DNA from: Scardovia wiggsiae F0424
Lineage (GTDB): Bacteria; Actinomycetota; Actinomycetes; Actinomycetales; Bifidobacteriaceae
DNA length: 64,000 nucleotides
NCBI RefSeq assembly: GCF_000269605.1
Contig: NZ_AKCI01000001.1
Span: 62,001-126,000 of the forward strand
Reading direction: 5' to 3'
The position numbers and the translations under genes were made by a program. The notes beneath the pieces were generated by a model. That model was not told the origin of the DNA, did not search any database, and worked only from the letters and a program-made list of their open reading frames with translations. The number at the start of each line of letters is the position of its first letter. Within the stretch, counting starts at the first letter, position 1. Of this stretch, positions 28,222 to 41,090 are shown piece after piece.

Positions 28222-29547
28222 ATGCGTGAATACGACCTCATCGTCATAGGGTTTGGCAAAGCAGGCAAAACATTGGCTGCCAGACAGGCTGCGGCCGGCA
28301 AGAAGGTTGTCCTCATTGAAAAAAGCTCTGCGATGTATGGCGGGACGTGCATCAACATTGCCTGCATCCCGACTAAAACTATGCTTGTTGCTGCCGAGAA
28401 GGGGCTGGGGTTTGATGAGGTCATGGCTCAGAGGTCTGCTGTGGTTTCCCGGCTCAATAAGAAGAATTATGCCGCGGTATCCGGTACTGCTGACGTCATT
28501 GACGCACGGGCGCGGTTCGTATCCAACAAGGTGGTTGAGGTCTCCGCAGGGGCAGATACGGAGCTGCTCACCGCTGCGGCTATCGTCATCAATACCGGCG
28601 CTGTCCCTGTGATACCAGATATCCCGGGGCTGGCAGGATCCGCGTATGCTTATGATTCCACCGGGATCCAGGGCCTCAGCTCGCGTCCCGGCAGGCTGGG
28701 GATCATCGGCGGAGGGCATATCGGCCTTGAGTTTGCGGGTATTTTCAATAAGCTTGGGACCGAGGTGACGGTGTTTGTTAACGGTCCCGGTATCCTCAGG
28801 GGGACTGAACCTGAAATCGCCGATCTCGCATATTCGTATATGAAGGAAGACGGGATCCGCTTTGAACTGGACTCCGCTGTTGCATCTGTGGAAGACTCAC
28901 GGGGTGCCGCTGTGCTCTCAACCAACAAAGGCGATTTTACGTTTGATGCAGTGCTTTATGCGGTCGGCCGGCGCCCTAATATTGATGGGCTCGGGCTTGA
29001 GGCTACAGATATTGAACTGACTGACAGCGGGGCGATCAAAACTGACAGGTTCCTCCAGACAGCTGTCCCCGGAGTGTTTGCCGCTGGGGATGTCAATGGG
29101 GGTCTGCAATTTACGTACATATCCCTTGATGATTTCCGGATAATCAACGCTTATCTCAGCCGGGCAGGGCAGGGCGGGCAGACGTACAGCCTTGCTGACC
29201 GGAAGAATATCCCCACGGCTACATTTATTACCCCTCCGCTGGCGCATATAGGCCTTACCGAAGCGCAGGCGCAGGGACAGGGGCTTGATTACAGGACAAA
29301 AACGCTTCCTGTTGCATCTATGCCGCGCGCGCACGTCAATAATGATCTCAGGGGAATGTTCAAAGCCATTATCAGCAGGGGAGACGGGCGCATCCTTGGC
29401 GCAACGCTTTTCGGCAGCCAGGCACACGAACTTATTAACCTCATCAAGATGGCGATGGATAACAACATACCGGCAGAGTATCTCGCCAGCCAGGTGTTCA
29501 CCCATCCTACGATGGCTGAGAATTTCAACGACCTTTTTGCGGCCTGA
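28222..29547 (+). CDS. RclA-like pyridine nucleotide-disulfide oxidoreductase
   Basis: 441 aa. Flavoprotein of the class I disulfide reductase family. The N-terminal FAD motif is VIGFGKAGKTLA. The redox pair Cys43/Cys48 sits in GGTCINIACIPTK, matching E. coli RclA rather than lipoamide dehydrogenase. The NADP-type second motif IIGGGHIGLEFA and the final HPTMAENFNDLF are also present. RclA protects against hypochlorous acid and other reactive chlorine species; that role here is inference. GGAAAGG precedes the ATG by 10 bases. It converges with the TetR gene 18 bases downstream. Confidence 0.88.
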   Translation: MREYDLIVIGFGKAGKTLAARQAAAGKKVVLIEKSSAMYGGTCINIACIPTKTMLVAAEKGLGFDEVMAQRSAVVSRLNKKNYAAVSGTADVIDARARFVSNKVVEVSAGADTELLTAAAIVINTGAVPVIPDIPGLAGSAYAYDSTGIQGLSSRPGRLGIIGGGHIGLEFAGIFNKLGTEVTVFVNGPGILRGTEPEIADLAYSYMKEDGIRFELDSAVASVEDSRGAAVLSTNKGDFTFDAVLYAVGRRPNIDGLGLEATDIELTDSGAIKTDRFLQTAVPGVFAAGDVNGGLQFTYISLDDFRIINAYLSRAGQGGQTYSLADRKNIPTATFITPPLAHIGLTEAQAQGQGLDYRTKTLPVASMPRAHVNNDLRGMFKAIISRGDGRILGATLFGSQAHELINLIKMAMDNNIPAEYLASQVFTHPTMAENFNDLFAA

Positions 29548-29565
29548 TACAGGAGCTTAGGTAAG

Positions 29566-30270
29566 TTACACTGTATCCCAGCCGTGCAGCAGGGCATTGA
29601 GGCCGGTCTCAAACAGGTGGGAGAAGGACCATCCGGCTGTATCCATGGGTTTCAGCAGATCTGTAAGGGTTTCCTTTTCACGCGGGCCGGCAGCGGCGAG
29701 CATCCCGGCAAGGCCTTCGTCTATGTCCTTTGCGGCGCCGCCCGCAGGAGGGGCAACTTCAGCGGCAGCAACGCCTCCCACGTACATAGTGACCATATTG
29801 ATCATTCCGAGTGCGTTGCCCGGCAGGGGGACCCCCAGATCGGCTATCTGTACCAGCAGCCGGGCCGCGGATGCGAACTCGTTCGCTGTACTCATCGGAT
29901 GTGTCAGGACAAGGATAACTGCGTTAGGATGGCTGTGCAGGATATCCATGAGACAATGGGCATACAGGCTGAAAACTGTTTTCCAGTCCGTGTTCCCGGC
30001 AGTAAAGCTCTCCTCTGACAAGGCGGATGTGCATCGGTCGAAAACTTCCTGCCAGATGATTTCTGCAACCCCATCCAGCAGAGCGGCTTTATCCGGGATA
30101 TGGCGGTAAAAAGCGGCCTGGGAAACACCGAGCCGCTTGCCGAGCGTGCGGAGGGAAAGGGCATCAAAACCTTTCTCATCAACGAGGGTGAGCGCCTCGC
30201 GGAGGATGCTTTCACGCGTCAGATGCCCGCGTTTTAAATCGCTGCCCTTTCTTTCCCCTGTATCGCCCAT
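29566..30270 (-). CDS. TetR-family regulator (TetR_C-type)
   Basis: 234 aa. N-terminal helix-turn-helix: LTRESILREALTLVDEKGFDALSLRTLGKRLGVSQAAFYRHIPDK, close to the TetR(A/B) group. The C-terminal half is the ligand-binding domain (about 75-230). It is the last gene of the minus-strand operon with the ABC-2 transporter, 10 bases after the permease, and so probably controls it. GTTAAC palindromes upstream of the ATPase gene are candidate operators. Confidence 0.88.
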   Translation of the reverse strand: MGDTGERKGSDLKRGHLTRESILREALTLVDEKGFDALSLRTLGKRLGVSQAAFYRHIPDKAALLDGVAEIIWQEVFDRCTSALSEESFTAGNTDWKTVFSLYAHCLMDILHSHPNAVILVLTHPMSTANEFASAARLLVQIADLGVPLPGNALGMINMVTMYVGGVAAAEVAPPAGGAAKDIDEGLAGMLAAAGPREKETLTDLLKPMDTAGWSFSHLFETGLNALLHGWDTV

Positions 30271-30280
30271 GCCTACGCTC

Positions 30281-31054
30281 CTATTCCATTTTCCTGGTAT
30301 CTACCCCCATAATGCATCTTATTATACAGACAGCTACGAGGACGGCAAGGAATATCAGCAGCATCCCGATCTGTCCGCCAACATCGCCTATGCCCGCCGA
30401 ATCCAGGCTGACCTTATGGACTGCGTCAAGCGCCCAGTATGCAGGGGATATTTTTGACACAGGCCGGGCCCAGCCGGGGAACCCTGAGGTCGAGCCGATA
30501 GCGCCGCCGATCCCTGCCATCAGCATCCCGACAAGGCTTGCCAGGGCTAGTGCTGTGTTTTCGGACCGGATCCACAGGGACAGCACCACTCCGAATGCGG
30601 TAAGGACTGCAGAGAATACAAGTGCCACTATGACAAGCGCTGCTATGCTCCCGTTGGGGCGGTAACCATACAGGAGGCTTCCCGCAGCCAGCACTACAAT
30701 AAGCTGCACAGCCTGGATCAGATAAATGACTACCGTTTTCCCCATGATGATATCTGCCGGTGTGGCTGCGGTCGACCGGAGCCGGGGCCATGTCCCCCAG
30801 GTGTGTTCATCAAAGAATGACTGGACGATGAACTGCACAGAGAGGAAAGAGAACAGGACCGCCATCCCTGGAACTACCTGTTCCGCACCCGTTGCCGAAG
30901 CATATCCTTCTGAGATAAGCAGGGTTTTGGAAGAAGGTATCAGGAACGGTGTGAGCATCAGCGGTATTATAGTCATTAGGATTGTAGGTATGGGATCGCG
31001 CAGCTGGATCAGCAGGTTGAGCCTGGCTATAGCCATAAAACGTTTGATTTTCAT
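30281..31054 (-). CDS. ABC-2 type permease
   Basis: 257 aa, about six transmembrane helices. It carries the ABC-2 pattern: a first helix after a basic N-terminus, a large loop with SEGYASATGAEQVVPGMAVLF, and a central helix pair followed by FPGWARPVSKISPAYWALDAVH. Partner of the ATPase gene: its ATG shares a base with the ATPase stop (TAATG), preceded by AAGGAG. Such exporters often carry drugs or lipids; the substrate is unknown. Confidence 0.9.
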   Translation of the reverse strand: MKIKRFMAIARLNLLIQLRDPIPTILMTIIPLMLTPFLIPSSKTLLISEGYASATGAEQVVPGMAVLFSFLSVQFIVQSFFDEHTWGTWPRLRSTAATPADIIMGKTVVIYLIQAVQLIVVLAAGSLLYGYRPNGSIAALVIVALVFSAVLTAFGVVLSLWIRSENTALALASLVGMLMAGIGGAIGSTSGFPGWARPVSKISPAYWALDAVHKVSLDSAGIGDVGGQIGMLLIFLAVLVAVCIIRCIMGVDTRKME

Positions 31055-32357: not shown

Positions 32358-32655
32358 CCCCGGTCATGCGATGCCTGTGTTTTGCCATATTCTGCCCGCT
32401 TTCCGATACTTGCCGCAGTTTTATGCCGTAGTGTGTTGCGCTTCTCTCCGTGATCCCTGGTGGGCCTGCTAACCTTGGAAAATATATAAAATTCAGGCGG
32501 GTTTTTCTCAGCTTGCTGTCAGTTCCGTATAAAAAACACAGCTATTTTTCACTGATTCTCCAAAAAAGTGCGGGGGTTAGGCTATACTGATGGATACAAC
32601 TTAAGAAACAACTTAAAATATCGTGTTTACTGACACATGCATTATAAGGAGAGTC
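32358..32655. promoter_or_regulatory. upstream region of the surface-protein gene
   Basis: A TATACT box at about 32583 is a likely -10 without a convincing -35. Two direct repeats ACAACTTAA (about 32597 and 32609) follow and could be regulatory. No gene is supported in this stretch. Confidence 0.4.
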
Positions 32656-34341
32656 ATGTTTTCTAAGGATAACAAAGTGAGCATGAAGCGCCGTGTTTTC
32701 GCTGCGGCTGCTGCAATGCTTGTTACCAGTGCACTGGTGGTTCCGGCCGCTGCTTATGCTGCCGATAACGATCAGTACACTCCTGCTGACGTGCCGGACG
32801 AGTTGACAACAGCTGTTGATGAGGCAAAGAATGCTGGCATTACTGTAACGCAGTCTGAAGATGTCAAGCAGCCGAACCAGTCCGCATCAGATAAGGATTA
32901 TGCCGCTCAGGTAAAAGCATTGAAAGAGCTTATTGAGAAGGCCAAGGCTAATACTGAGGCCTGCACTCAGGCCCAAGGGCTTGCAAAGAAAATCAATGAT
33001 CGGGTTGATGAGCTGAAGGCACAGTATCCGAAAGCCAATGTTACGACCCGCAGCGTCACTGCTTCCGATCTTGCCGAATATGAGCGTCAGGCGAACAATG
33101 CCGGCGCTGAGAATGAAGCCGCTCTGAACAAATACACAACAGAGAAGGCTGAAGTTGACCGTCATAATGCTGATACCAAGCGTGTTGAGGACAATCTGAA
33201 GAATCACTCCCTGTATAAGGATGAAGCTTCCGGAATTTATGTTACCGGCCAGTGGAACCCCACAGGTCATGGCCTTGGTTACTACAGCAAGCTCACTGCA
33301 CATCTGGTTGATGCTGCAAAGAAAGGTACTGTACTGTTCAAGGAAACAGGATGGGTGCCGGGCTCTTCTGCAGTCAAGGATGCTAATACCAAGGTTATCG
33401 TCAATCCGACGAAGGCAAGCATCCCTAACGGTGTGAATGATTCCACGATCAGCTCCGGTACTCCTACAGCGCTTCTTACCAATGTTAAGGTGGGTACTAC
33501 TTTCACTATTACTAATGCTGCTGAAGACGATCACGGCACTATGTATGATGTGAAGATCACTGTTACTGCTATTGACCGCTCCAACCTCAAACCGGGTACC
33601 GAAACTGCCGATAAGAGTGTAAATCTTGTTGTTGGTTATGAGAATGGCTCAGGCAAGCATCGCGGCATCCTCTTCGATTATATGAATGCCAATGATATTA
33701 CCATCAGTGCAACGTTCCTTGACAAGAGCGGAAACCCGGTACGCTCCCTGCAGGCATTTGCTGTTGGCGATGTGGATTTCCACCAGTCATCTACCGTTAC
33801 CTTCAACCAGAGCAACCTTGATGTTATGAATCCGCCGAACAGCCAGCTTACCTGCTCAGGCAAGCGCTGCACCGCTAATTTCATGAATAACGTTGACGGT
33901 TTCAATGAGGCTCCTAAGGGGACTTTCGCAGCTTCCGGTGTCGGCACCTCGCTGACATACAAGCATGAAGCTCCGAATGCTATTGCCCGTGATCTTACTG
34001 AGTTCGGCCTCTTCGGTACTGGAGCAAGCCTCGCATCTGATAAGATCGAGTATCTCCCGGATCCTGATCTGAACCTGGTCAAGGTTTCTGAACCGACCTG
34101 CCCAGCTGCCCTCACTGCAGCATGGCATAAGAACCTGGTCAAGGTCCCTCCAACCCCGCCAACACCACCGACTCCTCCAACGCCGAATACTCCGCCGGCT
34201 CCTCCTGCGACCCCAAAGAAGCCGCAGAAGAAGCTTGCCCGTACCGGTGTCGGTACCTTTGGGGTTGCAGCGGTTTCGGTTATCCTGCTTCTTGCAGCTG
34301 CCGGCGTGCTGACTGTGAAGATCCGCGCAGCGAAAGAGTAG
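32656..34341 (+). CDS. sortase-anchored surface adhesin, antigen I/II (GbpC/Spa)-like
   Basis: 561 aa. Signal peptide MFSKDNKVSMKRRVFAAAAA... ending near AYA-AD. Residues about 45-190 form an Ala/Glu/Lys-rich helical region reminiscent of the A-region of streptococcal antigen I/II. Residues about 200-480 resemble the GbpC/Spa lectin-like domain: FTITNA near the middle, then ITISATFLDKSGNPVRSLQAFAVGDVDF. Two Cys lie in LTCSGKRCTANF. The C-terminus has a Pro-Thr repeat stalk, the sorting motif LARTG, a hydrophobic helix and a basic tail, so it should be sortase-linked to the wall. AAGGAGAG precedes the ATG at 32656. The domain match is from memory and moderate. Confidence 0.82.
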   Translation: MFSKDNKVSMKRRVFAAAAAMLVTSALVVPAAAYAADNDQYTPADVPDELTTAVDEAKNAGITVTQSEDVKQPNQSASDKDYAAQVKALKELIEKAKANTEACTQAQGLAKKINDRVDELKAQYPKANVTTRSVTASDLAEYERQANNAGAENEAALNKYTTEKAEVDRHNADTKRVEDNLKNHSLYKDEASGIYVTGQWNPTGHGLGYYSKLTAHLVDAAKKGTVLFKETGWVPGSSAVKDANTKVIVNPTKASIPNGVNDSTISSGTPTALLTNVKVGTTFTITNAAEDDHGTMYDVKITVTAIDRSNLKPGTETADKSVNLVVGYENGSGKHRGILFDYMNANDITISATFLDKSGNPVRSLQAFAVGDVDFHQSSTVTFNQSNLDVMNPPNSQLTCSGKRCTANFMNNVDGFNEAPKGTFAASGVGTSLTYKHEAPNAIARDLTEFGLFGTGASLASDKIEYLPDPDLNLVKVSEPTCPAALTAAWHKNLVKVPPTPPTPPTPPTPNTPPAPPATPKKPQKKLARTGVGTFGVAAVSVILLLAAAGVLTVKIRAAKE

Positions 34342-34471: not shown

Positions 34472-34508
34472 AATTGGGGCTTCGCCAGTCAGGCGTTGCC
34501 CCAATTTT
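34472..34508. terminator. bidirectional terminator between converging genes
   Basis: AATTGGGGC-TT-CGCC pairs with GGCG-TT-GCCCCAATT around a five-base loop. T-runs follow on the plus strand, and the A-T ends favour use on both strands. Confidence 0.85.
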
Positions 34509-34515
34509 GTTTACT

Positions 34516-36447
34516 TTATTTTTGTAAAATCTCTGATAATCTTGCCATTACACTAGGTATAGTTTCTGGGTAATTCTTTTGGGTTGATTTTATCGAATCC
34601 CTCAGATCCTCTTTTTGAGGAGATTCTGCTATGTCCGGAGATATCTTTGAAAGAACTTTATACTCACTTGTAAGGCATGATCGTAATGCCAAGTAATTTA
34701 TAGTATCAAAAACTCCACGTATTTTATCTATTAGTTGTTGGTCAATCTTTCCATCCGAAAAGATTGAGTCAATTATTATTTTAACAATATGGTCGTTAAG
34801 ATAATAACCAATATCATAATAATCAATATCTTTAGAGATACTCCCAATAAGAGAAGTTTGAAAATCTGAAGGCTTTTTAAGCTTATCAAGTTCCATCGTT
34901 TTACGTTGTATAATAGATTTATACAGCTCATATTTAACAACTATCGGGCTAACATCATATCTCCTATGAGAATAAGCGCAGGTATATATTAAGTGTCTGA
35001 TAATCTGCTCAATAGGTAGAAATTCCAATATTGCTTTAAGTAGTACCAAGTCTGTTATGTTTTGCTCATTAAGAAGGTGTAGCAACTCTGTCCCGTCTTT
35101 GTTATATGTCAACTTAATATAGTTTTCCTTTACTTTCCATACTTGCCATCCCCGAGCTTGCCATGGATAAGTAAGAAGAAATTCGCCTGCTGTTTCAAGG
35201 TAGTCTGATTCAATGGCCTTTTGGGTTTCCTGAAGTACTTTTTCAGCTCCTTGGGTTGCCGTTTGAATATTTCCGTTTTTACCGATATCGATTGCCTTTT
35301 TGAGTGTTTCGTGTAACTCTATTATTTTCTTCGGGTCAGCGTCAGCATTATGAAGATAAGCTTTGTTGTAGCACTGGGTCATCTTGGATAACAATGTATC
35401 TATTTGCTGTTTCGGGTTAGGATCCTCTTTTGGGTAGGGTACGAGTACTTTCTCAGAATACTCTTTCCCCCAAGACGCGTAGATATTTAAGCATAACTCA
35501 GTATTTCTCTTATATTGACCATCTATGAATTCGAGTAATTCCTGAGACCGATCCTCAATTTTCAAAGTAGATAAAACTTTCCATTTATTCTCAAAATATC
35601 TTTTAATACAAAGAATACGATCGCTTATTATAGATGAGTTATCGTTACGGAATACTGTTTTTTGCTCATCATTATTCATAAATAAGGTGCGGTAAGTGAC
35701 TTTCTTCTCACTATCATTCAATATCGTATACAGGTAAATAAATTTTTCGTCTTCCTGAAATAAATTAATCCTTTTCTCAATTAATTCTATTGGATCTTCG
35801 TTGTTTTTGTAATTTTCGATATAATGAATGAGTGTTTCACAAAATTCTTTTTTATAAGAATCATCAATCATATTGTCGGTTTTGTCGCGCTCCGATTGCA
35901 ACATATCGCTCCGTGACCATAGGAGACTTAAACAGTCATTTGCACTGAGAATAAGGCTAAATAAACAGAATAAATATGTTACATACCAAAAAGACAAAAG
36001 TAGTGAGTTAATGTCAATACTACTAAATTGAGGTTTATGAGGTAAAAGTACAAGCTTATCCTTTGGTATAAAATATTTCGACAATGGTATAATATAAAGG
36101 AGTAAAAGGCTTCCCCGAAACTCTTTACTAGAAATTAATGAATATCCGGGTTTTTTAGATAGACGAAAAAGGTTGCGATTTATTCCAAGGTAATAAGCAT
36201 TCTTCACGTTCGTAGAAGCAAACGAATTGAAAAATGTAACAGTAAAGGCAATTAGTGCCGTAAGCCCAACTAAGTATGTAAGTAATGTAACTGAGTTATC
36301 TGCGAGAAAACGATGGCTACCAGGTTGAGTATAAACATTGTAAAGAACTATGGTAAATAGGAAAACAATGATAAAAAAGCTTATATTAATATGATTTATG
36401 ATAAGCGCCTTTAACCGTTCGATGTTATGGCTAATTATTCGTTTCAC
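34516..36447 (-). CDS. A+T-rich membrane protein of unknown function
   Basis: 643 aa. I do not recognise a family. Four hydrophobic segments occupy the first third (about residues 18-42, 55-80, 110-128 and 145-168). A long, mainly helical, Lys/Glu/Asp/Ile-rich cytoplasmic part follows to the end. Base and codon use (many ATA, TTA, AAA, AAT codons) differ sharply from the neighbours, which suggests recent acquisition. The GTG at 36447 is chosen because GGGGAGG lies 8 bases upstream; an ATG 16 codons earlier would begin with a run of six Ile and has no ribosome site. It follows the AAC(3)-like gene by 44 bases and is probably cotranscribed. Confidence 0.75.
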   Translation of the reverse strand: MKRIISHNIERLKALIINHINISFFIIVFLFTIVLYNVYTQPGSHRFLADNSVTLLTYLVGLTALIAFTVTFFNSFASTNVKNAYYLGINRNLFRLSKKPGYSLISSKEFRGSLLLLYIIPLSKYFIPKDKLVLLPHKPQFSSIDINSLLLSFWYVTYLFCLFSLILSANDCLSLLWSRSDMLQSERDKTDNMIDDSYKKEFCETLIHYIENYKNNEDPIELIEKRINLFQEDEKFIYLYTILNDSEKKVTYRTLFMNNDEQKTVFRNDNSSIISDRILCIKRYFENKWKVLSTLKIEDRSQELLEFIDGQYKRNTELCLNIYASWGKEYSEKVLVPYPKEDPNPKQQIDTLLSKMTQCYNKAYLHNADADPKKIIELHETLKKAIDIGKNGNIQTATQGAEKVLQETQKAIESDYLETAGEFLLTYPWQARGWQVWKVKENYIKLTYNKDGTELLHLLNEQNITDLVLLKAILEFLPIEQIIRHLIYTCAYSHRRYDVSPIVVKYELYKSIIQRKTMELDKLKKPSDFQTSLIGSISKDIDYYDIGYYLNDHIVKIIIDSIFSDGKIDQQLIDKIRGVFDTINYLALRSCLTSEYKVLSKISPDIAESPQKEDLRDSIKSTQKNYPETIPSVMARLSEILQK

Positions 36448-36491
36448 TAGTATGGCCTCCCCTATTTTCCGATGGATAATAATTATTATAA

Positions 36492-37328
36492 TCACATATT
36501 CTGCATTTCGCGGTCTTTGTTTCTGTAGTACTCACGCGCACGGCTGACCAGTGTGCGAATAGGGAAAGTGATGATGCGCGCGCCATTGAGTTTTACGGAA
36601 CGGATAGCCGAAGGGTCAGTATCCATGAAATGGTGTCCGAACGCAGTGAAATCATCATACTTATCAAGATCAACGCTATCGTATGTTATCCATTTTACTG
36701 AGGCTTTGCGCTGGTCAGTATCTGTTTTGCCCACTGGCGCAGTCTCCCGGATAAGAGGCCTTCCGATAGTGGATTCGGCATAATGGATAGCGGTGCAGGT
36801 ATCAAATCCTGTGCCGAGGAACAGCACTTTTCCATCCAGCTGATAAAGCTTATCAAGCGGGCTGCCTTCGCCAAACGGCATATCATATGTGCAAGTTTCG
36901 CATATCCAGTCGGCATGTTTGCCCCAGGCAGCCATAGAATACAGAGGGTGGAGGCTGCGCCTGGTATTGTGGAGCGTACGGAAGTATTCGGGTATCCTGC
37001 CGAGGCCATGCACCGGTGTAAGATCCGGGTCAAAGGCGGGGAGTGCGTCATGCACAGAGGATATAAGCGAAGGGTCAACCGGCGGAAACTCCCACCCCTC
37101 GGGACTGGACAGGTCAGTACTTTGCGCAGGCATGATGATGTCGCCGTCAGTCAGTACCTCCTTCAATACGCTGACAACAGTCTGTTCCCCTCCGGGGATG
37201 AATCCAAAAGCGCTCATCCTGGTATGTACGATGCAGGAATCGGTCGGCTGCAGGCCGATGGACAGGAGGGCTTTATGCAGCTGGCTGTCGGAGGTTACGG
37301 TAGTAATAGTCTGCTGTTCCCACGCCAT
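36492..37328 (-). CDS. AAC(3)-family aminoglycoside N-acetyltransferase-like protein
   Basis: 278 aa. Members transfer acetyl from acetyl-CoA to the 3-amino group of aminoglycosides, though many chromosomal ones act on other amines. Family features: CIVHTRMSAFGFIPGGEQTVV near the start, the IIMPAQSTD strand, HPLYSMAAWG, and FGEGSPLDKLYQLDGKVLFLG with the following HYAE. AAGGAGG precedes the ATG. Base composition is like the chromosome, unlike the gene after it. Antibiotic resistance is not established by sequence. Confidence 0.85.
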   Translation of the reverse strand: MAWEQQTITTVTSDSQLHKALLSIGLQPTDSCIVHTRMSAFGFIPGGEQTVVSVLKEVLTDGDIIMPAQSTDLSSPEGWEFPPVDPSLISSVHDALPAFDPDLTPVHGLGRIPEYFRTLHNTRRSLHPLYSMAAWGKHADWICETCTYDMPFGEGSPLDKLYQLDGKVLFLGTGFDTCTAIHYAESTIGRPLIRETAPVGKTDTDQRKASVKWITYDSVDLDKYDDFTAFGHHFMDTDPSAIRSVKLNGARIITFPIRTLVSRAREYYRNKDREMQNM

Positions 37329-37485: not shown

Positions 37486-37902
37486 TTATATCAGGTTGCT
37501 GTGGTATTCGGTTCGACCGGCGAGAACGTTATTGTAGAAGCACTGCTTATTGTCAATGTAGGCGATTGAATCGTTAATTTCTTTCAGCCTGGCATGCAGC
37601 GCCTTATATTTTTCGTCAAGCATTCGTTTTCGTTCGGGGATGGACGATTTTCCCCTCATGCACAGCTCCATGTAATGCCGCATTTCTGCGAGGCTCAGCC
37701 CGCAGCGGCGCAGGCAGCCGAGCCCCTCGATCCAGGCAATATCGCGTTCAGTGAAGACCCGATGGTTATGTTCGTTGCGCTGCAGATTGGGTACAAGACC
37801 TTCATTACAGTAAAACTTTAATGTCTCGTATTTCATGCCTGTGCGTTCGCACGTCTCCTTCATTGTATACAGATGGCTCTGTTCGTCTGTTGCTCTTGAC
37901 AT
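37486..37902 (-). CDS. MerR-family regulator
   Basis: 138 aa. Winged helix-turn-helix: YTMKETCERTGMKYETLKFYCNEGLVPNLQRNEHNHRVF, then the dimerisation helix (about residues 80-115). The C-terminus has a single Cys, so no metal-binding pair is seen; it resembles AdhR/NmlR-like regulators of aldehyde or thiol stress. It is divergent from the aldo-keto reductase gene. The palindrome between them fits a MerR operator. Confidence 0.9.
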   Translation of the reverse strand: MSRATDEQSHLYTMKETCERTGMKYETLKFYCNEGLVPNLQRNEHNHRVFTERDIAWIEGLGCLRRCGLSLAEMRHYMELCMRGKSSIPERKRMLDEKYKALHARLKEINDSIAYIDNKQCFYNNVLAGRTEYHSNLI

Positions 37903-38006: not shown

Positions 38007-38037
38007 TTGACCGGTAGCTGCTACCGGCATATATATT
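38007..38037 (+). promoter_or_regulatory. MerR-type promoter and operator of the aldo-keto reductase gene
   Basis: TTGACC (38007-38012) and TATATT (38032-38037) are separated by 19 bases, the stretched spacing typical of MerR control. The perfect dyad CCGGTAGCTGCTACCGG (38011-38027) lies between them. An alternative -10 TATATA at 38030 would give 17 bases. Confidence 0.75.
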
Positions 38038-38081
38038 ATGAATTATCAATTGGACAGTGTGAATCATTGAAAGGAACTATC

Positions 38082-38942
38082 GTGGAGCATATCACCCTTA
38101 GTAATGGTACTAAAATACCGAAGATAGGCTACGGCGTTTTCCAGATCGGCAAGGACGACTGCGCGCGCTGTGTACGGGAGGCTATTGAGATTGGTTACCG
38201 CCATATCGATACTGCACAGTCATATTTCAATGAATCCGAGGTAGGCGATGGCATCAAGGCCAGCGGTATTAGCCGTAGAGATCTGTTTGTCACCACCAAA
38301 GTATGGATTGACAACTACGGTTATGAAAACACGCTCAAATCTATTGATGCTTCACTAAAAAAGCTTAAGACCGACTATCTGGATCTCGTGCTGCTTCACC
38401 AACCGTTTGCCGATTACTACAGTGCATGGCACGCGCTGGAAAAGCTGTACAGGGATGGTGTCGTACGCGCTATCGGAGTAAGCAATTTCTATCCGGACCG
38501 GCTGGCGGATATGGTTGCCTTCAACGAGATTGCTCCGATGGTCAACCAAGTTGAGACCAACCCTCTTAACCAGCAGATTGCTGCGCATGAGAACATGGTT
38601 GCACGCGGGGTGGTGCAGGAAGCGTGGGCACCGTTTGGCGAAGGCAAATCCGGCTTATTTGACAATCCGACGCTCAAGGCTATAGGCGGGCAGTACGGTA
38701 AGTCGGCCGCGCAAGTTATCCTGCGCTGGCTTATGCAGCGCGGTATTGTGGCTTTGCCGAAATCTACCCATACGGAGCGTATGGCTCAGAACCTTGATAT
38801 TTTCGACTTCACGCTTACGGCTGACGACATGGCAGCTATCACTGCGCTTGATACTGGGACCAGCCTGTTCTTTGATCACCGTACCCCCGAGGCCGTGGAC
38901 CGGTTCATCGGTTATGTCAAGGAACGTGCCGGCCGTGAATGA
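38082..38942 (+). CDS. aldo/keto reductase
   Basis: 286 aa. NADPH-dependent carbonyl reductase of the TIM-barrel AKR superfamily, AKR5-like. The catalytic tetrad is visible: Asp and Tyr in HIDTAQSYFNE, Lys in TTKVW and His in LLHQP. The NADPH site motifs near the C-terminus include LPKSTHTERMAQN. The GTG at 38082 has AAAGGA upstream and gives the usual family length; an in-frame ATG at 38007 lies inside the promoter. Divergent MerR regulation suggests induction by aldehydes or electrophiles, as inference. Confidence 0.92.
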   Translation: MEHITLSNGTKIPKIGYGVFQIGKDDCARCVREAIEIGYRHIDTAQSYFNESEVGDGIKASGISRRDLFVTTKVWIDNYGYENTLKSIDASLKKLKTDYLDLVLLHQPFADYYSAWHALEKLYRDGVVRAIGVSNFYPDRLADMVAFNEIAPMVNQVETNPLNQQIAAHENMVARGVVQEAWAPFGEGKSGLFDNPTLKAIGGQYGKSAAQVILRWLMQRGIVALPKSTHTERMAQNLDIFDFTLTADDMAAITALDTGTSLFFDHRTPEAVDRFIGYVKERAGRE

Positions 38943-39647: not shown

Positions 39648-40856
39648 CTATTCTGCCAGCAGCGGTGCGACCTGCCCGTCATAAGCGGCCAGGGCGCTGC
39701 TGATCACCTGATGCATATCGTAATATGCATAAGTGCCGAGCCGCCCGCCGAAAACGACCTGAGGCTCTTCGGCTGCTTTTGCCTTGTACTGCGCGTAGAG
39801 AGTGCGGTCTTCGTCGGTGTTGATGGGATAGTACGGCTCATCGCCGCGCTCGGCAAAGCGTGAATACTCTTCCCAGACAACAGTCTCATTATGGTTCTGC
39901 CTGTCGTACCGTTCGGGGTTGAAATTCTTGTATTCGATAGCGCGGGTGTACGGTACATCGGAATCAGCATAGTTCATTACTGCACAGCCGAAGTGGTCAT
40001 CTTCCGCATAGCGCTTTTCCTTAAAATCAACAGTACGCCACTTGAGCTCACCAAGCTCATAATCGAAATAACGGTCAACAGGGCCTGTGTAAATAACGGG
40101 GACACGGCCTACGAGCGCTTTCTTGTTATATGGCTGGCTTTCATCGAAGAAATCAACGCCAAGCGACACGGTGATGCGGGGATCATCGATCATGCGCTCA
40201 AACCATGCTGTGTACCCGTCAGCCGGCAGCCCCTCCCACGTGTCTTTGAAGTAGCGGTTATTATAGGTGAACCGTACGGGCAGGCGGCGGATAATAGATG
40301 CGGGCAGTTCGCTTGGATCCGTCTGCCACTGCTTGGCCGTATAGTTGCGGATGAAAGCGTCATACAGCGGCTGCCCGATAAGCTTTTTGCCCTGCTCGTC
40401 AAGGTTTTTCGGGTCAACATCAGCGTATTCACCAGCCTGCTTTTCAATCTCAGCCTTTGCTTCTGCGGGCGTATACGACGCATGGAAAAACTGGTTGATG
40501 GTCCCCAGGTTCACCGGCAGGGGGAAGACTTCGCCGGCATGTGTGGTATACACACGATGCACGTAATCGGTAAACTCAGTGAAACGGTTTACATATTTCC
40601 ATACGCGCTCATTGCTAGTGTGGAACAGATGCGCACCGTATTTGTGGATTTCAGCACCGGTCTTTTCATCGAAATATGAGTAAGCATTACCCCCAATATG
40701 GCTGCGGATATCAATAATATGTACTCGTTTGCCGGTATGCTCCACCACTTGCTGGGCTATCGTCAGGCCAAAAAGCCCTGCCCCTACGATTACAATATCA
40801 GCGTTGATTCCGTCAGTCTCCGCGCCGGCGTCAGCAGTATTTACATCATGAACCAT
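39648..40856 (-). CDS. glf: UDP-galactopyranose mutase
   Basis: 402 aa. FAD enzyme that interconverts UDP-galactopyranose and UDP-galactofuranose for cell-wall or exopolysaccharide galactofuranose. FAD motif IVIVGAGLFGLTIA, IGGNAYSY, KYGAHLFHT, the NYTAKQWQTDP segment, and the C-terminal GRLGTYAYYDMHQVI are all characteristic. The start at 40856 has AAGGAAGG upstream; an in-frame ATG 7 codons earlier lacks one. It is monocistronic. rmlB and gtrA nearby also point to surface glycan synthesis. Confidence 0.96.
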   Translation of the reverse strand: MVHDVNTADAGAETDGINADIVIVGAGLFGLTIAQQVVEHTGKRVHIIDIRSHIGGNAYSYFDEKTGAEIHKYGAHLFHTSNERVWKYVNRFTEFTDYVHRVYTTHAGEVFPLPVNLGTINQFFHASYTPAEAKAEIEKQAGEYADVDPKNLDEQGKKLIGQPLYDAFIRNYTAKQWQTDPSELPASIIRRLPVRFTYNNRYFKDTWEGLPADGYTAWFERMIDDPRITVSLGVDFFDESQPYNKKALVGRVPVIYTGPVDRYFDYELGELKWRTVDFKEKRYAEDDHFGCAVMNYADSDVPYTRAIEYKNFNPERYDRQNHNETVVWEEYSRFAERGDEPYYPINTDEDRTLYAQYKAKAAEEPQVVFGGRLGTYAYYDMHQVISSALAAYDGQVAPLLAE

Positions 40857-41090
40857 ATTGGGTGCCTTCCTTTTCATATCGGTTAAAGGTCTGCCATCAT
40901 TCTAGCTTATGCGATGTATGCGCTGTGCCGGGGCATGTGCAGGTGAGGATGCGAAAAGCTGCACGGTGGTTGCACGGTTGCCGCCTGGCGTAATCGGCAT
41001 GAGGAAGTTGTAGACTTGTAAGGGCTGATACGGCCACGTACGCAAACTAAAAAACGCCATAAACTGTTGAGCTTATTAAGGAGGCCGGAA

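Follow-up and report, generated by a model that had tools for sequence, protein, structure and literature searches.

A patchily distributed, horizontally exchanged membrane protein of actinobacteria with a possible role in anti-phage defence

In the genome of Scardovia wiggsiae F0424 (1.55 Mb, a single contig), an AT-rich gene for a large membrane protein, here designated P0001, lies directly behind a gene for an AAC(3)-type acetyltransferase. The arrangement raises the question whether the two genes form a small unit or whether the membrane protein gene was inserted behind the promoter of its neighbour, and what the encoded protein may do for the cell. We analysed the locus within a stretch of 64,000 nucleotides (the window; G000:C1:62001-126000) and traced relatives of P0001 in other genomes. 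The features of the locus and of the protein are collected in Table 1.

Table 1. Features at the P0001 locus and their positions in the window.
Feature	Position	Strand	Remarks
AAC(3)-type acetyltransferase, 278 aa, intact	36492..37328	-	PF02522 (Antibiotic_NAT), E 1.4e-68
AT-rich gap, AAC(3) stop to P0001 start	36448..36491		exactly 44 bases, 31.8% GC
Ribosome-binding site AGGGGAGG	36456..36463	-	8 bases 5' of the P0001 GTG start; read from sequence
P0001 gene, 643-aa polytopic membrane protein	34516..36447	-	GTG start at 36447, TAA stop at 34516-34518, 643 codons
Membrane module, residues 20-180	35908..36390	-	TM helices about 20-39, 52-78, 108-126, 146-180
YLGIN motif, residues 86-90	36178..36192	-	predicted cytoplasmic loop between TM2 and TM3
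All-helical cytoplasmic part, residues 181-643	34519..35907	-	predicted; without a conserved polar, catalytic-looking residue set
Hairpin AATTGGGGC...GCCCCAATT	34472..34506		between the convergent stops of the P0001 and surface-protein genes; read from sequence
MerR-type regulator, context	37486..37902	-	divergent from aldo/keto reductase
Aldo/keto reductase, context	38007..38942	+	divergent from MerR-type regulator
glf, UDP-galactopyranose mutase, context	39648..40877	-	same strand as P0001, 3.2 kb upstream

The original prediction had described P0001 as an open reading frame of foreign composition behind a chromosome-like acetyltransferase gene, and both parts of this description were borne out. 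P0001 is not a chance reading frame, since a model built from its bifidobacterial relatives alone recovered it at E 4.4e-57. Among 325 ORFs (150 aa or longer) sampled from 464 kb of its own genome (the window plus 20 further stretches), none is richer in A+T than P0001, whose GC content is 33.4% as compared to 53.2 +/- 4.3%. Likewise, its codon usage is the third worst of 234 own-genome ORFs (z -4.64), whereas that of the acetyltransferase gene is typical of the genome (z +0.26). The GC content shifts at both borders, 100-bp bins ranging from 27 to 43% within the gene, from 41 to 61% in the acetyltransferase gene and from 56 to 58% in the surface-protein gene on the other side. Other AT-rich loci of this genome were also noted. 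A stretch of three genes with 35-43% GC (G000:C1:696876-699969; L068:16876-19969) encodes a HATPase_c protein of 391 aa, a receiver-like protein of 363 aa and a 185-aa protein and could represent a defence-type kinase/receiver pair, a PADLOC match being absent. A very AT-rich gene for a KAP-family NTPase of 599 aa (G000:C1:1400998-1402797; L077:998-2797) is defence-like and corresponds to the PADLOC candidate PDC-S49, and a gene for a 438-aa unknown protein (34.3% GC; G000:C1:851845-853161; L070:11845-13161) has the worst codon usage in the sampled genome.

That acetyltransferase and membrane protein constitute one functional unit is suggested by their common orientation and their narrow spacing, a scan of the 44-base gap having found no terminator. 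However, the comparison with other genomes makes such a unit very improbable. An AAC(3)-like gene was found at none of the homologue loci, and a comparable AAC(3) (E <1e-10) is itself rare, occurring in one of 100 other genomes of the family, there on a short separate contig; moreover, the two genes are of opposite composition. We therefore regard the pairing as coincidental. The acetyltransferase belongs to the Antibiotic_NAT/AAC(3) family (PF02522; 231.3 bits, gathering cut-off 25), to which P0001 is unrelated. Its nearest solved proteins are the aminoglycoside N3-acetyltransferase 3e4f/3ijw, FrbF and YokD. Since its score against the AAC(3) equivalog NF033082 of NCBIfam (132.7 bits) lies below the cut-off of 270, we do not assign its substrate to the aminoglycosides. 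The second possibility raised originally, insertion of the membrane protein gene behind the acetyltransferase, gained support from composition, codon usage and the occurrence of the relatives as single genes. P0001 is best read as inserted at the end of the acetyltransferase transcription unit, before the convergent surface-protein gene and a probable terminator. The latter is the hairpin between the two convergent genes, which probably serves both of them; it was passed over by the terminator scan, as its loop exceeds the rule of the scan. Thus, the acetyltransferase is removed as a misleading lead, its adjacency being accidental. Repeat searches for attachment sites around a tRNA-Ser gene and P0001 yielded short, chance-like repeats only, which lends no support to the tRNA as the insertion point. 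The surface protein (32623-34341) has a sortase tail of the LARTG type, and its N-terminus weakly matches adhesin-P1; the protein is unmatched at the glf loci of both same-genus genomes. Further away, a block encoding a reductase, a TetR regulator and an ABC permease (28222-31054) shows 96-98% protein identity to a block of genome G021 situated on the opposite side of ssb, while glf is just 90% identical; this is probably a transferred or rearranged block.

P0001 had been called unrecognised, and indeed it has no match above chance level in Pfam, NCBIfam, PADLOC, PHROGs or PDB. A housekeeping family, which would have spoken against the original prediction, was not found in these collections either. 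Profile searches of all members against Pfam, NCBIfam, PADLOC and PHROGs gave no match common to the family, PDB sequence searches returned nothing at E <0.001, and PADLOC-DB 2.0 provided no significant profile match for P0001 and none for its relatives. The best PADLOC hit, ShosT (E 0.005 over 108 residues), and matches to CSN3-like_C and GpA_ATPase were dismissed as chance, the relatives being without them. Whole-genome searches identified relatives in 12 other genomes of the same actinobacterial order: four in genus g13 (G084, G147, G136, G181), two in genus g10 (G024, G010), five in genus g34 of another family (G355, G967, G949, G237, G959), and one in G485. Within its own bacterial family the gene is present in 7 of 189 genomes and missing from 182, including both same-genus genomes. 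No relative apart from P0001 itself turned up among 396 genomes sampled across the phylum, nor in the sampled phage and plasmid records, viral contigs and genome-contig collection scans.

Membership was assessed with models built from subsets of the sequences. A model derived solely from the g34 and G485 proteins retrieved P0001 at E 5.5e-11, with none of the 601 decoy ORFs and none of the 260 shuffled sequences scoring as well. Using a model of eight core members, G485, G237, G959 and G949 were recovered at 4e-13 to 1.5e-8, while the best non-member ORF across all loci reached E 0.2. G237 and G959 are the most distant members: not significant with the bifidobacterial model, they reach 8e-10 and 6e-9 once the model includes G355 and G967. 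A 588-aa protein encoded behind glf in G001 was rejected as a member in the model search. Across lineages, the members share about 20-35% identity, and nine of them, P0001 included, are intact over 620-780 codons. As judged from these comparisons, the P0001 family is a previously unnamed group of divergent, exchangeable, single-gene membrane proteins of actinobacteria.

The layout of four N-terminal helices followed by a large cytoplasmic domain, as originally proposed, is reproduced by hydropathy analysis and by both AlphaFold2 models (mean pLDDT 66 and 71, pTM 0.46), which place four transmembrane helices within residues 20-180 and predict the rest of the protein as all-helical. Hydropathy peaks at residues 20-38, 55-73 and 149-167 account for three of the helices, and the fourth, at 108-126, is present in both models. 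The distribution of positive charges suggests that both termini and the loop comprising residues 79-107 are cytoplasmic. The membrane module is the better conserved part, with a mean BLOSUM62 score across the family of 0.77 for residues 52-180 as compared to 0.18 for residues 181-643. The most conserved positions are L62, Y86, F110, P121, W154 and L165, all but W154 being identical in every aligned member; Tyr86, which belongs to the YLGxN motif, is conserved in 11 of the 11 members having that column. In the cytoplasmic part mainly hydrophobic positions are retained, and it therefore does not look enzyme-like. Foldseek searches against the PDB and viral structures returned nothing at E <0.001. 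The best matches were alpha-solenoid proteins (armadillo, HEAT, TPR and designed helical repeats), none of them with E <0.08 and with TM-scores by query length of at most about 0.23; they would indicate only that P0001 is helical and nothing beyond.

The members sit singly at differing sites, and their neighbours differ by lineage. S. wiggsiae has the acetyltransferase and the surface protein, g10 has glf directly upstream together with GlfT2, and the g13 copies lie near tatD and a HipA_C kinase; for g34 the neighbours are serine dehydratase and Cthe_2159, and for G485 an M81 peptidase gene. Seven copies (G084, G147, G136, G181, G355, G967, G949) have a GC content 14-28 points below their surroundings, as has P0001, whereas the other five (G024, G010, G485, G237, G959) deviate from their flanks by just 4-9 points. 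In g34, all five members occupy one slot between corresponding chromosomal genes. In three of these genomes (G355, G967 and G949), flanking DNA is 86-88% and flanking proteins are 91-93% identical, the match stopping immediately past the terminator hairpin of the Cthe_2159 gene, whereas the slot proteins of G355 and G967 share 31% identity and that of G949 matches either one at 23-30% over a short stretch. Different alleles have thus replaced each other in one slot. In g13, the site is empty in G176, a related species, which has no member between the AAA_14-DUF4143 and HipA_C genes, and G084 is devoid of the AAA_14 gene. The proteins encoded next to the member agree at 91-94% between G084 and G147, the member itself at 49% in its N-terminal and 64% in its C-terminal part. 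The member DNA of G147 and G136 is a mosaic, with 92-93% identity in the N-terminal part that falls to 69-74% towards the 3' end. Four members are broken, one by an in-frame TGA (G147) and three as frameshift-split genes (G136, G181 and G959). Foreign GC content, patchy distribution, an empty site and allele replacement in a slot characterize the gene as a horizontally exchanged accessory gene.

The g13 interval between tatD and rsmI (L008:8616-14410; also L009, L007 and L054) is a variable mini-island that holds the HipA_C kinase, the P0001-family gene and the AAA_14-DUF4143 gene in varying combinations. A 694-aa protein with several C-terminal transmembrane helices and no family match (L018:10720-12804) is encoded 26 bases upstream of the split G181 homologue and is a possible partner. 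The accessory genes behind glf (Table 1; L019, L020 and L035) differ among several genera, and this region may be an insertion hotspot.

The original prediction had also suggested looking for homologues in defence islands or beside AAC(3)-like genes. The latter were found at no homologue locus; by a plain count of the neighbourhoods, defence-type genes adjoin the members in two lineages, g34 and g13. Random neighbours had been named as an argument against the prediction; indeed, the neighbours are mostly unrelated, yet in these two lineages the gene is surrounded by defence-type ones. In G237 and G959, the member is adjoined by a DUF262 gene (PADLOC PDC-M55C), whose product resembles HEC-05, SspE and PD-T4-2 and has a solved relative, 7p9k; the same slot also contains HEC-01A/B in G959 and a YoeB toxin gene in G237. 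In g13, the member lies between a gene for a CtkA-like HipA_C kinase and the AAA_14-DUF4143 gene, labelled by PADLOC as the candidates PDC-M03A and PDC-S01; all PDC and HEC entries are candidate-level labels. As DUF4143 genes are common in g13, with 7-15 per genome, their adjacency alone is a weak indication; in G181, one such gene lies 2.4 kb from the member. A HipA_C kinase as a fixed partner was discarded: it occurs in 11 genomes, of which just three also have the membrane protein gene. The P0001 locus itself and those of g10 and G485 revealed no defence-type neighbour. Together, the g34 slots (L085:3399-12121 and L086:5226-11252), bordered by serine dehydratase/amylosucrase-like genes on one side and by Cthe_2159 on the other, hold HEC-01A/B, DUF262 proteins, Phd/YoeB-type genes and P0001-family members and are likely a defence hotspot.

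We tentatively propose that P0001 serves anti-phage defence as a membrane effector that is encoded by a single, horizontally exchanged gene and acts in an abortive-infection-like manner; we give this reading somewhat less than an even chance. For a defence role, at which the original prediction had hinted, speak indirectly the foreign GC content, the patchiness, allele replacement in a slot, the defence-type neighbours, decay and the conserved membrane module in a protein lacking a catalytic residue set. Against it, P0001 matches no known defence family, its own locus lies outside any defence island, the PADLOC labels of the neighbours are at candidate level, the most convincing defence neighbours belong to the members most distant from P0001 (G237 and G959), five copies deviate little in GC from their flanks, and the phage, plasmid and viral sequences that were sampled lack the family. 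In its own locus, the gene would probably be transcribed by read-through from the acetyltransferase promoter. The variable cytoplasmic part may sense an infection cue or keep the protein inactive, and once triggered, the membrane module, which is conserved, would assemble so as to permeabilize or block the membrane, thereby halting phage production. We favour membrane disruption as the action because the membrane module is the conserved part; this mechanistic step is less secure than the defence role as such.

Much of the same genetic pattern, that is an allelic slot and mosaic divergence, would also be expected of an exchangeable competitive protein such as a superinfection exclusion factor, a bacteriocin immunity protein or a strain-variable self-recognition factor, which would act at the membrane by binding a foreign protein, instead of killing the infected cell. 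Conservation of the membrane module and the occurrence as a lone gene without an antitoxin would fit as well. We nevertheless consider this unlikely: the cytoplasmic part is very large for such a role (about 460 residues), bacteriocin or secretion genes were recognized beside none of the members, and two lineages have defence-type neighbours. Alternatively, P0001 could be a passenger, a decaying acquired gene of no present benefit, as the four broken relatives, the empty site and the low conservation might suggest. Nine members have, however, remained intact over their full length despite their low identity, with the five membrane-module residues present in all aligned members, and such long intact ORFs and invariant transmembrane core residues need selection; this makes a passenger still less probable than a competitive protein.

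A role in the cell envelope, e.g. in galactofuran metabolism, is brought to mind by glf, which lies on the same strand near P0001 and, accompanied by GlfT2, directly before the member in g10. It is the least probable of these three alternatives, as both same-genus genomes possess glf and lack a P0001-family gene, like the great majority of genomes of the family, and members of other lineages reside away from glf. As an unrelated accessory protein follows glf in G001, the position looks like a variable slot, and we tentatively read the proximity to glf in the source genome and in g10 as use of a common insertion slot.

An anti-phage effector would have counterparts among known systems. Defence hotspots carry single-gene abortive-infection and orphan genes, and to this day many of the genes found there count as hypothetical (Vassallo et al. 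2022, PMC9519451). Like these, the P0001-family genes are lone or small, patchy and found in fixed slots with defence genes; unlike them, they have no PADLOC match and are known from sequence alone, and their slots are chromosomal and show no prophage genes. KwaA of the Kiwa system forms a tetramer embedded in the membrane, where it senses infection (PMC12904381). P0001, as a polytopic inner-membrane protein with a proposed action at the membrane, may be compared to it as a working analogy; in contrast to KwaA, it has a very large cytoplasmic part and neither a sequence match nor a KwaB partner, PADLOC giving no KwaA match and gene lists and family scans no recognizable KwaB-like neighbour.

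Taken together, our data could point, with slightly less assurance than for P0001 itself, to an unnamed family of actinobacterial immunity proteins that reside in the membrane and are encoded by single genes; in these, a conserved four-helix membrane effector would be coupled to a hypervariable cytoplasmic sensor, and AT-rich single-gene allele cassettes would be swapped in fixed chromosomal slots. For the oral and gut members of this actinobacterial order, phage defence seems to be little charted. The family consists of hypothetical proteins only, yet it combines slot-wise allele replacement with defence-type neighbours and thereby provides a directly testable gene set, while the g34 slot, extending from the serine dehydratase/amylosucrase-like genes to Cthe_2159, can be mined for further genes.
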